From assembly GCA_013178125.1 (NCBI GenBank), contig JABLXJ010000004.1, positions 1 through 64,000 of the forward strand: a stretch of DNA of 64,000 nucleotides. The letters run 5' to 3'. The notes below the pieces were generated by a model. The model ran no database searches and had not been told where the DNA came from. It saw nothing but the letters and a program-made list of their open reading frames with translations. Both the position numbers and the translations under genes were made by a program. The stretch comes from Bacillota bacterium. GTDB lineage: Bacteria > Bacillota > SHA-98 > Ch115 > JABLXJ01. Below, piece after piece: positions 23,852 to 33,435 of the stretch. Each line of letters begins with the position of its first letter. Position 1 is the first letter of the stretch.

Positions 23852-24191
23852 TGCCAACTTTTTTGGCAGGCTACGCTCAAAGATGCCAACTTTCTGGGCA
23901 GCCTTCCCCAGCCAAAAGTGAAAGTGCCAATTATCTTGGCAGGTCACGTGCAAGGGTGCCAAGTTTATGGGCAGTTATTCGTCCATCCTGCCAAGAATCT
24001 TGGCAGGGTGTCCCGGCAAAGAGGTGAAGGTGGCAACTTCCTTGGCAGGTTGTACGTAATGATGCCAAGATTCTGGGCAGCCACTCGCTCATCTTGCCAA
24101 AAATCTTGGCAGTTTGCCTCGGTAAAAGGTGAAAGTGCCAATATTCTTGGCAGGTCGCGCATAAAGGTGCCAAGATTCTTGGCACTTGGCA
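23852..24191. repeat. Helically phased array of ten 17-bp palindromes
   Basis: Ten units of consensus TGCCAAGAWTCTTGGCA start at 23852, 23884, 23925, 23957, 23989, 24031, 24063, 24095, 24136 and 24168. Units 23989 and 24168 are perfect odd palindromes; the others differ at one to three places. A half unit, TTGGCA, closes the array at 24186. Start-to-start distances are 32, 41, 32, 32, 42, 32, 32, 41, 32, so there is a higher-order period of 105-106 bp (three units), and the longer spacers share A-rich sequence ending GGTGAA(A)G just before the next unit. Spacers differ in sequence. Distances are close to 3 or 4 turns of B-DNA, which would put all sites on one face. The array lies between the helicase 3' end and the CXXC/NapH pair. 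It is not a gene: spacing of 32 shifts the frame at each unit. Confidence 0.9.
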
Positions 24192-26812: not shown

Positions 26813-28483
26813 GTGGCCGCCGCGAAGGGACGGGGCGGGGGAAAGGGCGGGGATGATTTGGGCCAGGAGTGGCGACTTCTTGATACAGGGGTTCGTCCCG
26901 CCGCCGAAAATATGGCGCTGGATGAAGTCATACTAACGGCGAGGAGCAGGGATCTCTCGCCGGATACCATTCGCTTCCTCCAGTTTCATCCCCCATGCGC
27001 CCTGGTGGGCTACCACCAGGATGTTGAGCAGGAGGTAAGGGTGGACTGGTGCCGGGAGCACGGCGTGGAGATCAACCGGCGCATCACGGGGGGTGGGGCC
27101 CTATTCTGGGACGAGACCCAGATCGGCTGGGAGGTAATCGCCGCGAAGTCGCATCCCGGCATCCCGTCCGGCATCGAGGGGCTCTATGAGAAGCTCTGCC
27201 TGGCCGCGGTCTCGGGCCTGCGCGCGCTCGGGGTGGAGGCATGCTTCCGGCCGCGCAACGATATCGAAGTGAACGGGCGGAAGATATCCGGCACCGGCGG
27301 GACCGGTCTCGACGGCGCGTTCCTGTTTCAGGGCACGCTCCTCGTTGACTTCGACGTCGATAGTATGCTGAGGGCGCTCAGGATTCCCACCGAGAAGCTC
27401 AAGCGCAAGGAGATCGAATCCGTCAAGGAGAGGGTCACCTGCCTCAAATGGGAGCTCGGCTATACGCCCTCGCCCGCTGAGATAAAGGCTGCGCTGTGCA
27501 AGGGTTTCGAGGATGCACTCGGCATGAGCCTTTCGCCGGGGTGCCTGACGTCCGCGGAGGAAGGTCTTTTCGCGGAGCGGCTCCCGTATTTCCGCTCGGA
27601 CGACTGGATCAGAAAGGTGAGGCAAAAGCCCGGGTCGAGCTTTGAGCTCCGGTCCGTGAGAAAGGCCCCGGGTGGCCTCGTGCGCGTCTCACTGGCCCTG
27701 GATAGGAGCACCTCAAGGGCCTCACGGCTGAAATCCGTGTTCATCACGGGCGATTTCTTTGCCCACCCGAAGCGGGCCATATACGACCTCGAGGCCCGGT
27801 TGAAGAACGCAAGGGCGGAGCCGGCCACCATAACGAGCCTGGTCGAGGCCTTTTTTGCGGAGAGGGGGGTGAAGATCCCGGGAGTGCCCCACCCCGAGAT
27901 ATCCGGGGCGATCCTGGAGGCGCTGAAGAAGGTCAAGCTCACCCAGTTCGGCATCCCCGAGGGCGACGTAAACTCGATTTTCGCAGTCAAGGGGGCGTTT
28001 GGGGATATCCTGAGAGAGCTAAATGAGGCCTCCCGCGCCGGCCCCGTTGCCATCCTGCTCCCATACTGCGCAAAAAAGCCGGGGTGCTCATACCGGTATC
28101 GCGAGGGCTGCGCCTCGTGCGGCCAGTGTAGCATCGGGGAGGCATACGACATGGCCCGGGAGTTCGCCTTGATGCCCGTGTGCATTCAAAACTACGAGAT
28201 GCTGGAGTCGACCCTGGAGGGCCTGAAGTCGCGGGGGGTATCCGCGTTCATCGGTAGCTGCTGCGAGGCCTTTTTTGCAAAGCACCACGATGATTTCGAG
28301 AGGATCGGGCTCAAGGGAATCCTCGTTGATGTAGAGAGCTCGACCTGCTACGATCTTGGCAAGGAGAAGGAGGCCCACCACGGGCGCTTTGAAAACCAGA
28401 CCGAATTGAAGCTCGGCCTTATCAGGAAGGTTCTGGAGGCAATGAAGAATTATGGCAATTATGACTGCGGGGAGCATTCGTGA
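26813..28483 (+). CDS. Lipoate-protein ligase A domain fused to DUF116
   Basis: The 556-residue protein has two parts. Residues 15-260 are a LplA/LipM-type ligase: RRITGGGALFWD at 89-100 (substrate loop) and GRKISGTGG with the catalytic-type Lys157. Residues 260-360 fit the accessory C-terminal domain. From about 410 on it is a Cys-rich DUF116 domain (LPYCAKKPGCSYRY; CASCGQCSIGEA; GSCCEAFF; SSTCYDLG), a family of unknown function with possible metal-cluster ligands. The ligase part would attach octanoate or lipoate to a carrier such as GcvH. The start GTG at 26813 has a weak site; TTG at 26858 is an alternative. The next gene overlaps its end. The context suggests lipoate assembly. Confidence 0.85.
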   Translation: MAAAKGRGGGKGGDDLGQEWRLLDTGVRPAAENMALDEVILTARSRDLSPDTIRFLQFHPPCALVGYHQDVEQEVRVDWCREHGVEINRRITGGGALFWDETQIGWEVIAAKSHPGIPSGIEGLYEKLCLAAVSGLRALGVEACFRPRNDIEVNGRKISGTGGTGLDGAFLFQGTLLVDFDVDSMLRALRIPTEKLKRKEIESVKERVTCLKWELGYTPSPAEIKAALCKGFEDALGMSLSPGCLTSAEEGLFAERLPYFRSDDWIRKVRQKPGSSFELRSVRKAPGGLVRVSLALDRSTSRASRLKSVFITGDFFAHPKRAIYDLEARLKNARAEPATITSLVEAFFAERGVKIPGVPHPEISGAILEALKKVKLTQFGIPEGDVNSIFAVKGAFGDILRELNEASRAGPVAILLPYCAKKPGCSYRYREGCASCGQCSIGEAYDMAREFALMPVCIQNYEMLESTLEGLKSRGVSAFIGSCCEAFFAKHHDDFERIGLKGILVDVESSTCYDLGKEKEAHHGRFENQTELKLGLIRKVLEAMKNYGNYDCGEHS

Positions 28484-29594
28484 ACGTGAATACGACGCCT
28501 TAGTGGTCGGGGCCGGGCCCGCGGGCGCGTGCGCCGCGAGGAGGCTGGCGCTGGGTGGGGTCAGGGTGCTCATCGTGGAGCGAAAGCCCCAGGTAGGCGT
28601 GCCTGTTCAGTGCGCGGAATACGTTCCGATGTTCATCACCCGCTATGTCCCCCTAGATGCTGGCCATATAGCGCAGCGCGTGGACGAGATGGAGACCTTC
28701 CTCCCCACGGGTGAGGTCGTCAGGAATCGCTTTCCAGGTTATGTCCTGCACAGGGCGCTTTTTGACAGGAGCCTTACAGCCTCGGCGCTCAGGGCCGGGG
28801 CCGAGCTCCTCCTCCGGGCGAGGGTGACGGGTTTGAGCGATCATGGCGCTGTGATCGAATCAGGGGGCCCGGGCCGCAGGGAGAGGTTCGAGGTCGCTGC
28901 TAAGGTGATTATAGGGGCGGACGGGCCCCTCTCGACAGTGGGGAAGGCCACCGGCCAGGAGAACGCCGAATTTGTCGTGGGGGCGCAGTGCGAGGTCCTG
29001 CTTGATCGGCCCCTCGGAGCCACGCAGGTCTATTTCGATCCCGAGTATTTCGGGGGCTATGGCTGGGTCTTCCCGAAGGGGGATACGGCGAATGTCGGAG
29101 TCGGGTTGCAGCTCACGGACACTAGGGCCTCGGGCGCCCCGTTGGACAGCCCGCCAGGGGCGCGCGAAGCCCTCGGGGGCTTCCTGGATAAACTCAAGGT
29201 CAGCAGGGGCAAAGTTCTTGGCTATACGGGCGGTCTTATCCCGGTTGGCGGGCCCCTCGCCGCGGTATCCGGGCGCGTGCTCCTTGCCGGCGATGCAGCC
29301 GGGCACACCCACCCCTTGACGGGCGCAGGCATACTTCACGCGGTGATAGGCGGCGATGCGGCCGGGAGGGCGGCGGCCCGGGCGATCAGGGATAATGATA
29401 TGGAGGCCTTGAAGTCCTATGATGATGAATGGCGTGGTATTTTCGGCAAGAGCCTCGAGAGGGCGGTCGCGGGGCGCGCGCTCTTGATGAGTAACTGGTG
29501 TTGTGACCGCGGGGCTCTGAGCGAGCTCATACGCAGGACGTGGATAGCGTTTCGCTCGCTTGCTGATCGCCCTCTTATGGATGCTCGCTTATGA
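28452..29594 (+). CDS. Geranylgeranyl-reductase-like FAD protein (LipT-like)
   Basis: The 380-residue flavoprotein has the FAD-binding GAGPAGACAAR motif near the N-terminus, a second FAD motif VLLAGDAAGHTHPLTGAGI at about 280, and the FPKGDTANVGVG segment typical of the geranylgeranyl reductase/FixC group. In LipS1/LipS2-type lipoate clusters a protein of this group (LipT) recurs, and its position after the ligase gene fits that. A lipid-saturating role cannot be excluded. It overlaps the upstream gene by 32 bases. Start ATG at 28452 or 28461; neither has a strong site. Confidence 0.8.
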   Translation: MAIMTAGSIREREYDALVVGAGPAGACAARRLALGGVRVLIVERKPQVGVPVQCAEYVPMFITRYVPLDAGHIAQRVDEMETFLPTGEVVRNRFPGYVLHRALFDRSLTASALRAGAELLLRARVTGLSDHGAVIESGGPGRRERFEVAAKVIIGADGPLSTVGKATGQENAEFVVGAQCEVLLDRPLGATQVYFDPEYFGGYGWVFPKGDTANVGVGLQLTDTRASGAPLDSPPGAREALGGFLDKLKVSRGKVLGYTGGLIPVGGPLAAVSGRVLLAGDAAGHTHPLTGAGILHAVIGGDAAGRAAARAIRDNDMEALKSYDDEWRGIFGKSLERAVAGRALLMSNWCCDRGALSELIRRTWIAFRSLADRPLMDARL

Positions 29595-29768: not shown

Positions 29769-30737
29769 ATGGAACGAATTGGACGGGTCGCAGAGGATAT
29801 AACGGAGCTCGTTGGTCGAACGCCGATGGTGCGCCTCCGCAGGGTGGCACAGGCACAGGGTGCGGTTGCGGAGGTTGTGGCCAAGCTGGAGTCCTTTAAC
29901 CCGGGTGGCAGCGTAAAGGATCGCATCGGGTACAGCATGATCGCTGCTGCAGAGGAGAAGGGGATATTGAAGCCAGGGAAAGGGGCGGTGGTGATTGAAC
30001 CTACAAGCGGGAACACGGGTATAGCCCTGGCCATGGTTTGCGCGGCAAGGGGCTACAGGCTCATCCTCACCATGCCGGACACTATGAGCATCGAGCGCCG
30101 GAACCTCCTTGCAGCTTACGGCGCTGAGCTTGTGCTCACACCTGGCGCCGAGGGAATGAAGGGTGCTATTCGCAAAGCGGAGGAGCTCGTTGCCCAAATT
30201 CCAGGCGCCTTCATGCCGCAGCAGTTCGAGAACCCCGCCAACCCTGAGGTCCACCGCCGAACCACGGCTGAGGAGATATGGGCGGATACTGGGGGCAAGG
30301 TTGATGCGATCGTGGCAGGGGTCGGCACGGGTGGGACGATAACTGGAGTCGCCGAGGTTTTGAAAAAGAGGAAACCGGAGGTTTACGTAGTGGCCGTCGA
30401 GCCGGCCGATTCGCCGGTGCTTTCGGGCGGCAAGCCCGGGCCACACAAACTGCAGGGGATTGGAGCAGGATTTGTGCCGAAGGTGTTAAACCCCAAAGTC
30501 ATAGATGAGATCTTCAGGGTCAGGACCGATGAGGCCTATGAGGCCGCACGGAGGCTCGCAAGGGAAGAAGGCATCCTTGCGGGCATCTCGTCGGGCGCCG
30601 CGACCCACGCTGCGCTGGAGATAGCGAAAAGGCCGGAGAATGCAGGCAAGCTGGTCGTGGTGATCCTGCCTGACACGGGTGAGAGATACCTGTCCACGCC
30701 TTTATTCGAGTCGGATCAGGGGGAAGGAAGAGGATGA
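29769..30737 (+). CDS. cysK: Cysteine synthase A
   Basis: The 322-residue PLP enzyme makes cysteine from O-acetylserine and sulfide. The cofactor Lys is in NPGGSVKDR (about residue 47), the phosphate loop is GTGGTITG, and [12 protein letters not shown] is the substrate loop. The ending [14 protein letters not shown] is typical of CysK. Start ATG follows TCGGAGG. The next gene, an Rrf2 regulator, overlaps its stop in ATGA, as in other Bacillota where cysteine genes pair with CymR. It sits between the lipoate-type genes, where it might supply sulfur. Confidence 0.95.
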
Positions 30738-31189
30738 AGCTATCGACTCGCGGCAGGTATGGCGTGAGGCTGATGTTTGATCTGGCCCTCAACTTCGGCA
30801 AGGGACCCATACCTCTCAAGGATATCGCGAAGCGGCAGGACATCTCCGAGCATTACCTTGAACAGCTCGTGGCTCCATTGAGGCGGGCGGGAATGGTAAC
30901 CAGCATCCGCGGCGCGCAGGGGGGATATGAGCTCTCAAAACGCCCTGAGGAGATCACTGTAGGGGATATAATCAGGGTGCTCGAGGGACCAATCGCGCCT
31001 GTTGAATGCGCCGGCATGAATGCCCCATCCGAGGCCTGCGACAGGGCTGACAGGTGCGTTGCGCGCCTCATCTGGGAGCGACTCAGGGATAGCATCACGT
31101 CACTGCTGGATTCCATCACACTCGCAGATATGTGCGAGGATGTCGGGAAGCTGTCTGGGGAACAAGATAGCTATATGTACTATATTTAG
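30734..31189 (+). CDS. Rrf2-family transcription regulator
   Basis: The 151-residue protein begins [19 protein letters not shown] with the winged helix of the Rrf2 family and has [14 protein letters not shown] and [12 protein letters not shown]. Three Cys ([17 protein letters not shown]) in the C-terminal part have the spacing C-x9-C-x5-C, near that of IscR, so it may hold an iron-sulfur cluster rather than act as a pure CymR. Coupled to cysK, it likely senses sulfur or cluster status and controls this operon. Start ATG at 30734. Confidence 0.88.
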
Positions 31190-31235: not shown

Positions 31236-32231
31236 ATGGAGGAAGGAGCCTGGAAGGAAATCACGCTCGGGACCGGTGGGGCCGGCTCCACCGGGACCGA
31301 TCGCGGCCTTGAAGAGGCGTGGCGGGTGAGAAAGGCCAACTTTACCGATATCATTTATTTCCCCGTTCCCAGCATCATAAGATATGATACAGAATGTTAC
31401 ACAAACAGCCCTGCAAGCTTTGTCCCCGTTTCTATAACAGGGAGAGCGTGCGCCCTCAGGTGCGATCACTGCAATGGCCGCATCCTGGAGAATATGATCC
31501 CGGCGGCGACGTCTGGAGCCCTCCTCGCCCTGGGGAAGAGGCTGGCGGGTGCCGGCTGCCGCGGTCTTCTCATAAGCGGCGGCTCGGGCCCGGATGGCTC
31601 CGTCCCACTGGACTCATTTATCGACGCGATAAGCGAGCTCAAGCGGGCGTACGGGCTTCGAATTGCCGTTCACACGGGGCTGGTCGACAGAAACCAGGCC
31701 CGGCGGCTGGCAGGAGCGGGCATCGATGTAGCCATGATCGACGTCATCGGGAGTGCGGCAACCGCCCGCAGGGTCTACCACCTCGAGGCCGCCCCCCAGG
31801 ATTACATCGGGTCTGTCAGAAACTTGAAGGACGAGGGCGTGCCCGTGGTGCCTCACATTGTCCTGGGCCTCGACTACGGGCGCCTCGAGGGAGAGGTCGA
31901 CGCCCTGTATGCCCTTTCCACCTGCGGTATTCATGAGCTTGTCCTGGTTATTATGATGCCGCTCAAGGGCACGCGCATGGAGAGTGCCAGGCCGCCCGGA
32001 CCCTCGGAGCTTGCCGGGGTGTTTGCGCTCGCGAGGGGCTTGTTTCATCGCCAGCACATATTCCTTGGCTGTGCAAGGCCGGGAGGAGATCACAGGCGCG
32101 ATGTCGAATTACTCGCGGTAAGGGCCGGGTTCAACGGGATCGCTTATCCATCCGATGAGACGATTCGCCTCGCTCGCGACCTGGGGCTCGAGGCAGTATT
32201 CTCAGAGCAGTGTTGTTCGCTGGTGGTATGA
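31236..32231 (+). CDS. Radical SAM protein, probable LipS1/LipS2-type
   Basis: The 331-residue protein has the radical SAM cluster Cys72-x3-Cys76-x2-Cys79 (CALRCDHC) and a barrel with ISGGSGPDG and HTGLVD. The N-terminal 40 residues are Gly-rich. Together with the next gene it forms a radical SAM pair near a lipoate ligase and a LipT-like gene, the composition of the LipS1/LipS2 lipoate synthesis route known from Thermococcus and sulfur oxidizers. Which of the two it is, I cannot decide. Start ATG follows GGTGAGG. Confidence 0.7.
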   Translation: MEEGAWKEITLGTGGAGSTGTDRGLEEAWRVRKANFTDIIYFPVPSIIRYDTECYTNSPASFVPVSITGRACALRCDHCNGRILENMIPAATSGALLALGKRLAGAGCRGLLISGGSGPDGSVPLDSFIDAISELKRAYGLRIAVHTGLVDRNQARRLAGAGIDVAMIDVIGSAATARRVYHLEAAPQDYIGSVRNLKDEGVPVVPHIVLGLDYGRLEGEVDALYALSTCGIHELVLVIMMPLKGTRMESARPPGPSELAGVFALARGLFHRQHIFLGCARPGGDHRRDVELLAVRAGFNGIAYPSDETIRLARDLGLEAVFSEQCCSLVV

Positions 32232-32319: not shown

Positions 32320-33435
32320 ATGGATTCGATGCAGGCGCCGGGGCCCACCCCGGCGATTGAAGAGAGCCCTGAGCCTGAGATTGAAGAAAGCCCTGAATAC
32401 GTGCGCACGAGCCTGGGCGCGGCCATCGCGTTGGGCTTCAGCCCAGGGGCTTTTTACAGGGATGCAAGGGCCTACTGTGTTAACTTGCTTTTGACCTATG
32501 GGGATGGGTGCAGGGCAAATTGCGCCTATTGCGGCCTCTCGCGCAGCCGGGCCGGCGAGTATACGGATAAAAGCTTTATACGCGTCAAGTGGCCAGTCGT
32601 CAGGGTGAGCGAGGTCGCGGAGCGAATTGGTGAAATTGGCGATTCAGCCGGGTCGCGGGGCGAGGTCGAGGTGCGAAGGGTGTGTATCTCCATGGTTACC
32701 CACCCGAGAGCTGCGGCCGATGTGGTGCGCGTGGCAATGGCTATTCGCTCGCGATCGGATGTGCCGATCTCGGGGCTTCTGACCCCTACAACCCTCGCGA
32801 GGTCGGACCTGGAGGCGATGAAGAATGCCGGCATCGATAGAATCGGCATCGCCGTTGACGCGGCAACGCAGGGGATTTTCGACGTCTTGCGTGGCCACGG
32901 CGTGAGGGGGCCCCACAGGTGGGAGAGCTACTGGAAAGCCCTTGCTGAAGCGGTTGAGGTGTTTGGCCGGTGGATGGTTGGTTGCCACCTGATCGCCGGC
33001 CTCGGGGAGACGGAACAGGAGATGGCGGGCGCCATACAGATGGCGCACGACATGGGCGTCGTCACCCACCTTTTTGCCTTTTATCCCGAGCACGGTTCGG
33101 CCATGGAGTGCCACGAGCGGCCCTCCCTCGAATCTTACCGCAGGATTCAGCTCGCGCGATATTTGATAAATGAGGGCATTGCAAGGTGCGAGGACTTCTC
33201 GTTTGACGGCGGGGGGACGATCACCGGCTATGGAATCCCCCGCGACAAGCTTGAAAGTGTAGTAGGGCTCGGCCTCCCGTTCATAACGAGCGGGTGCCCG
33301 GGCAAGCATGGCGAGCTGGGCTGCAACCGGCCCTACGCGAACGAAAGGCCCGGGGAGCCCATCAGGAACTACCCCTTCCCGCCGGACGAGCAGGATATAG
33401 AGGAGATCAGGGCCCAGCTTGGTTTGTCCATGTGA
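32320..33435 (+). CDS. Radical SAM protein, biotin-synthase-like, probable LipS1/LipS2-type
   Basis: The 371-residue protein has Cys64-x3-Cys68-x2-Cys71 (CRANCAYCGLSR) and a BioB-like barrel (THPRAAADVV; GLLTPTTL; CHLIAGLGETEQE). The end has extra Cys, SGCPGKHGELGCNRPYANE, a pattern seen in archaeal biotin-synthase-like proteins and a possible site for an auxiliary cluster that donates sulfur. True biotin synthase is unlikely since no bio genes are near. The first 35 residues are Pro/Glu low complexity. Start ATG behind AAGGAGG at 13 bases. Confidence 0.7.
   Translation: MDSMQAPGPTPAIEESPEPEIEESPEYVRTSLGAAIALGFSPGAFYRDARAYCVNLLLTYGDGCRANCAYCGLSRSRAGEYTDKSFIRVKWPVVRVSEVAERIGEIGDSAGSRGEVEVRRVCISMVTHPRAAADVVRVAMAIRSRSDVPISGLLTPTTLARSDLEAMKNAGIDRIGIAVDAATQGIFDVLRGHGVRGPHRWESYWKALAEAVEVFGRWMVGCHLIAGLGETEQEMAGAIQMAHDMGVVTHLFAFYPEHGSAMECHERPSLESYRRIQLARYLINEGIARCEDFSFDGGGTITGYGIPRDKLESVVGLGLPFITSGCPGKHGELGCNRPYANERPGEPIRNYPFPPDEQDIEEIRAQLGLSM

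Follow-up and report, generated by a model that had tools for sequence, protein, structure and literature searches.

A lipoate ligase fused to a cysteine-rich DUF116 domain in LipS1/LipS2 cassettes of Bacillota: a candidate iron-sulfur partner of lipoyl synthesis

What is encoded at the locus? The window analysed here, a stretch of 64,000 nucleotides from the genome of an anaerobe-type Bacillota bacterium, holds a reading frame, uninterrupted from end to end, for a protein in which an LplA/B catalytic domain is followed by an LplB-like domain and a divergent DUF116 domain (Table 1); an alternative TTG start is possible at 26858. An earlier note on this DNA, made from the letters alone, had read the gene as a lipoate ligase fused to DUF116, and this is confirmed by the LplA-B_cat and DUF116 profile matches within a single open reading frame. 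The interval it gave for the fusion, 27980-28483, describes the DUF116 part well and does not describe the whole gene, which begins upstream at 26813. The ligase part retains the lysine of the NDIxVxGxKIxG motif of Lpl(AB) ligases, Lys157 (NDIEVNGRKISG; 27281-27283), which is invariant across 20 aligned relatives. The LplB-like domain reaches 43 bits against NF053749, whose curated cut-off is 65, and its match to 3r07_C, an LplB subunit of known structure, has an E-value of 2e-5; in the fusion protein of genome G137, PF10437 stands above its cut-off. Pfam DUF116 (PF01976) matches residues 406-514 with 37 bits (cut-off 25, E 3e-09), and the domain searched alone reaches 40 bits against the same cut-off; it is the sole DUF116 of its genome.

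Table 1. Genes, domains and cysteine groups of the fusion cassette; positions refer to the window.
Feature	Coordinates	Strand	Basis or remark
Lpl(AB)-DUF116 fusion protein, 556 aa	26813..28483	+	ORF, Pfam/NCBIfam profiles, alignment
LplA/B catalytic domain	26900..27511	+	LplA-B_cat match, residues 30-233, E 2e-50
LplB-like accessory domain	27662..27925	+	residues 284-371; NF053749, 3r07_C
Divergent DUF116 domain, predicted alpha/beta Rossmann- or flavodoxin-like	27980..28480	+	Pfam, AlphaFold (mean pLDDT 88)
First Cys group C419, C425, C433, C436, C439	28067..28129	+	loop after strand 1, ends CxxCxxC
C483-C484 pair after strand 3	28259..28264	+	C483 restricted to fused subfamily
C512 after strand 4	28346..28348	+	alignment, predicted structure
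LipT-like FAD oxidoreductase (geranylgeranyl-reductase family)	28452..29594	+	TIGR02032, position
Cysteine synthase CysK	29769..30737	+	profile search
Rrf2-family regulator, closest to CymR	30734..31189	+	178 bits, below 195-bit cut-off
LipS1, second-class (LbpA-type) lipoyl synthase subunit	31236..32231	+	NCBIfam
LipS2	32320..33435	+	NCBIfam

The fusion gene overlaps by 32 bases with a lipT-like gene, assigned by profile (TIGR02032, 196 bits against 158.8) and position, and cysK, the Rrf2 gene, lipS1 and lipS2 follow downstream on the same strand. LipS1 lies barely over its NCBIfam cut-off (231.4 against 230), and LipS2 is a strong match yet below its own (232.7 against 270). The placement of the fusion beside radical SAM lipoyl synthases, as originally noticed, thus stands, with both subunits in the same cassette and the link conserved: LipS1 was found at E<=1e-30 in 91 of 398 genomes, among them all 13 fusion genomes of that sample. 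In 12 of these a LipS1 gene is no more than 9 kb away from the fusion; in the exception, G001, the fusion stands close to the end of a contig and LipS1 is encoded on a different one. These fusion-linked LipS1 proteins score 200-242 bits against the family model, lower than most others. In the window, cysK and the CymR-like Rrf2 gene (29769-31189) split lipT from lipS1; this insertion is missing in the relatives G006 and G008, whose four cassette genes adjoin one another, and cysK was not found between lipT and lipS in other cassettes.

How widespread is the fusion? With a profile of the fused domain as query, 13 of the 398 genomes sampled from the phylum gave matches at E<=6e-54, each in an open reading frame of 533-859 residues, followed by a gap, the next matches starting only at 8e-8 and belonging to ordinary DUF116 proteins of about 255 residues. 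Searches at class and order level, covering small samples around G028, G053 and G062, added a fourteenth fusion (G402, from the class of G028), so that the search for further cases proposed in the earlier note has yielded 14 genomes. The 13 fused proteins align over their full length with a mean column identity of 66%. Lpl-DUF116 is a real, discrete subfamily; a chance event or frame artefact was rejected, as the fusion recurs in 14 genomes. A scan of genome contigs returned solely the genus mate.

DUF116 itself occurs in 189 of the 398 genomes. In five neighbourhoods (G050, G028, G053, G020, G062) the ordinary gene belongs to all or part of the series priA-def-fmt-DUF116-(YugP-like)-rsmB-rlmN-prpC-prkC-rsgA-rpe, the genes being named from N-terminal sequences and gene order. 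Stand-alone DUF116 genes adjoining lipS1/lipS2, which had also been suggested as a place to look, did not appear among the matches listed for the phylum sample, and a search of plasmids returned no match. The association with lipoate is therefore a trait of the fused subfamily and not of DUF116 as a whole.

The cysteines are the most conspicuous feature of the tail. At least ten had been claimed at DUF116-like positions; ten are present in residues 390-556, the last 167, against seven in the first 389, and eight of them are conserved. These eight (domain positions 30, 36, 44, 47, 50, 94, 95 and 123) are invariant across 13 aligned fusions, and all except position 94 stay so once the alignment is extended by 32 ordinary DUF116 proteins, whereas Cys 68 and Cys 163 of the domain are not conserved. 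The window domain thus contains the conserved DUF116 cysteine set with its CxxCxxC motif, and the seven cysteines common to fused and ordinary members confirm the weak Pfam assignment. Compared with ordinary DUF116 (PF01976, COG1852, arCOG02078; PMC5898192), with which it shares these cysteines, the alpha/beta fold and a score above the cut-off, the fused form scores about 40 bits rather than about 190, follows a ligase in place of the N-terminal stretch of about 95 mostly hydrophobic residues, the membrane segments that ordinary members usually have and that lie outside the profile, adds one cysteine, and is tied to lipoate assembly, whereas ordinary members are tied to the def-fmt operon.

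The AlphaFold model of the domain is a confident alpha/beta structure (mean pLDDT 87.9) with predicted strands at domain positions 23-28, 65-69, 89-93 and 112-116, while the full-length fusion model is weaker (pLDDT 79, pTM 0.57). In the predicted model strand 1 leads into Cys 30-50, strand 3 into Cys 94/95 and strand 4 into Cys 123; provided that the sheet is parallel, all conserved cysteines would lie at the same, C-terminal edge. A Foldseek search of the predicted domain against the PDB gave no match at E<=0.001, the best fold matches being B12-binding and other Rossmann-like domains (TM 0.3-0.46), a sequence-profile search of the PDB yielded nothing credible, and a solved structure for a DUF116 protein did not turn up. 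From other contexts, a flavodoxin-like fold and an electron-transfer role have been predicted for DUF116 (PMC5898192).

Two kinds of lipS system can be told apart in the neighbourhoods. In one, lipS1 and lipS2 belong to a glycine-cleavage set, gcvT-H-PA-PB-lipS1-lipS2-lpl; in the other, to which the window cassette belongs, the set is LbpA / Lpl(AB) / LipT / LipS2 / LipS1. Cassettes of the second kind lie beside Hdr genes in G028 and G391 and beside GlcD/GlcF genes in G062, G165, G053, G137 and G094, as well as, with unfused ligases, in G084, G121 and G057. The window genome carries the first kind too, on contig C5 (35000-54000), where lpl, lipS2 and lipS1 end a glycine-cleavage operon and the LipS2 and LipS1 proteins are only 33-36% identical to those of the window. 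On contig C6 (34000-44000) it encodes HdrB and two HdrA-like proteins together with a GcvH-like protein of the LbpA type. This Hdr-linked protein groups with the cassette LbpAs, apart from the glycine-cleavage GcvH proteins, at a support of 100/100, and is probably the acceptor of the window ligase. Another genome, G129, has the fused cassette as well as a second Hdr-LbpA cluster (C1, 3240000-3250000) with its own unfused, divergent ligase. Within glycine-cleavage lipS sets there are natural LipS1-LipS2 fusions (L141:7296-9446, L151:6516-8444) and LipS2-ligase fusions (L150:5956-7797, L153:5891-7762), which suggests that the two LipS subunits and the ligase function in one assembly.

The arrangement has a close precedent. 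As in the described sLpl(AB)-LipS1/S2-LipT pathway (PMC10332631), Lpl(AB), LipS1, LipS2 and a LipT-like flavoprotein are encoded in one cluster, and LbpA-type carriers, frequently along with Hdr proteins, are encoded close by. However, the ligase here carries a C-terminal DUF116 domain, the hosts are Bacillota relatives, and the neighbours are Hdr or GlcD/GlcF genes rather than a demonstrated sulfur-oxidation set. DUF116 is absent from the main text of that paper, and our literature search found no paper joining DUF116 and lipoate. We take the Lpl-DUF116 cassette for a variant of this known pathway.

Among the partners, LipT is the most constant: it lies next to or near the fusion in all 14 fused cassettes, and in only one of seven cassettes with an unfused ligase, that of G057. 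In a tree of the ligase domain the 14 fusions form one group (91/90) with G057 as its sister (81/82), placing the origin of the fusion in a single event; LipT seems to have been acquired first and DUF116 later, once each, if the tree is followed. A 14/14 versus 1/7 table gives p about 1e-4, but the tree holds only one independent pair, so that we dropped the p-value and count the association, consistent over wide divergence, as one event.

Could DUF116 stand in for a part of the synthases? In T. kodakarensis the auxiliary-cluster ligands of the two subunits were found by mutation (C230, C276, C277 and C85, C276, C279; PMC9585515). In all three kinds of system, fused, unfused and glycine-cleavage, LipS1 and LipS2 each keep the radical-SAM cysteines (CxxxCxxC) and three further cysteines that match these ligands in order and number. 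We therefore rejected a replacement of the LipS auxiliary cluster by DUF116, which makes the domain a partner and not a substitute. In G137 (L095:5799-8306, minus strand) the Lpl-DUF116 frame continues into a complete LipA (TIGR00510, 370 bits, cut-off 310), a single case from a draft genome of 370 contigs, in which a sequencing slip at the junction is possible. The known LplA-LipA fusion (NCBIfam NF053790) likewise joins ligase and lipoyl synthase; G137, however, has DUF116 in between and scores 499 bits, split over two stretches, where the cut-off is 800 bits, and the window protein lacks the LipA part. In G053 and G094 the gene order is Lpl-DUF116, LipB, LipA, LbpA, GlcD, GlcF, LbpA, LipT, LipS2, LipS1; a linkage of canonical lipoate genes with lipS1/S2 has been described in Sporomusa (PMC10332631).

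What, then, might the tail do? We consider it rather probable that this DUF116 subfamily serves lipoyl synthesis as a dedicated iron-sulfur partner and unites the ligase and LipT with the radical SAM synthases, LipS1/S2 and in one case LipA, in a single assembly. For its more specific role we favour, with a probability of roughly 0.4, an iron-sulfur module at the ligase/synthase assembly through which electrons pass from LipT to LipS1/LipS2. The Lpl(AB) part would activate octanoate or lipoate and attach it to an LbpA-type carrier, whereupon LipS2 and then LipS1 would insert the two sulfurs, at C8 and C6, respectively, as is known for their homologues (PMC9585515). The tail would hold one or two iron-sulfur clusters through its seven to eight cysteines at one end of the domain and hand on electrons from the flavoprotein, LipT having been proposed as the electron donor to LipS1/S2 (PMC10332631). 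The relay would thereby be located where the carrier is charged, with the ligase keeping the carrier close. If the subfamily is indeed such a dedicated partner, this would be the first concrete function for a DUF116 protein; in a widespread family whose function is not known, a subfamily tied to an assayable pathway makes function testable. It would also bear on two questions about the LipS1/S2 pathway, namely the source of electrons and the renewal of the sacrificed clusters.

The second of these questions leads to a different, less likely reading, in which DUF116 is a dedicated donor of [4Fe-4S] clusters or sulfur that rebuilds the sacrificed auxiliary clusters of LipS1 and LipS2 in the manner of NfuA. 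Demand would be high, since each subunit carries a [4Fe-4S] auxiliary cluster (PMC9585515), whose cysteines are retained in all cassettes; SmsB2C2 of T. kodakarensis can restore LipS1/S2 (PMC12442378), LipA, to which DUF116 is fused in one case, likewise sacrifices a cluster, and the window cassette includes a cysteine synthase and a CymR-like regulator. Of the supply role put forward in the earlier note, the donor function thus keeps some plausibility, while the replacement of an auxiliary cluster does not. Speaking against a donor, however, a Pfam search of the window domain at E<=10 gave no Fer4 (ferredoxin), NifU or A-type match, and NfuA/NFU1 carriers (PMC9585516), to which no sequence relation was found, would be functional analogues under this reading. 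Moreover, unfused LipS1/S2 cassettes and the glycine-cleavage lipS1/S2 of the same genome manage without DUF116, a donor leaves the tie to LipT unexplained, and eight fully conserved cysteines fit stable clusters better than a labile one. The data do not decisively separate the two, but the constant presence of LipT makes the electron relay at least as likely as a donor, and together with the eight cysteines it leads us to prefer the relay as the most likely role. Against it, the LipT correlation rests on one acquisition each of LipT and DUF116, LipT occurs without DUF116 in G057 and in the cassettes of PMC10332631, and a relay does not account for the tail sitting on the ligase instead of on LipT or LipS.

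Two further readings appear improbable to about the same degree. That the domain acts on the carrier, by reducing the LbpA dithiol or keeping it reduced, or by docking LbpA or its Hdr or GlcD/GlcF associates, would agree with the LbpA, Hdr and GlcD/GlcF genes beside fused cassettes and with the extra cysteine of the subfamily, which creates a CC pair; yet in G084, G121 and G057 it is an unfused ligase that serves the LbpA/GlcD/GlcF neighbourhood, and the HdrB-like CCG domain brought to mind by the CC pair was rejected, as hhalign gave a probability below 1%. Nor was anything found in support of the octanoyl carrier being held by DUF116, as once surmised. A structural or regulatory zinc or iron domain, stabilising the ligase or sensing redox on its behalf, would suit a domain that sits on the ligase itself, and one ordinary DUF116 protein has a weak Pfam zinc-ribbon match (E 0.017). 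However, a single origin with no loss in 14 divergent fusions, constantly accompanied by LipT and LipS, points to the synthase step, as does the fusion to LipA.

Upstream of the cassette, at 23852-24184, the window contains ten palindromic 17-base units close to TGCCAAGATTCTTGGCA, spaced by 32, 41/42, 32, 32 ... bases with a period of about 105. The pattern has 18 matches against 0.4 expected, all of them within this interval, and the unit has no exact match in the other loci examined. Its form suggests an operator or iteron array or, alternatively, a small repeat element.
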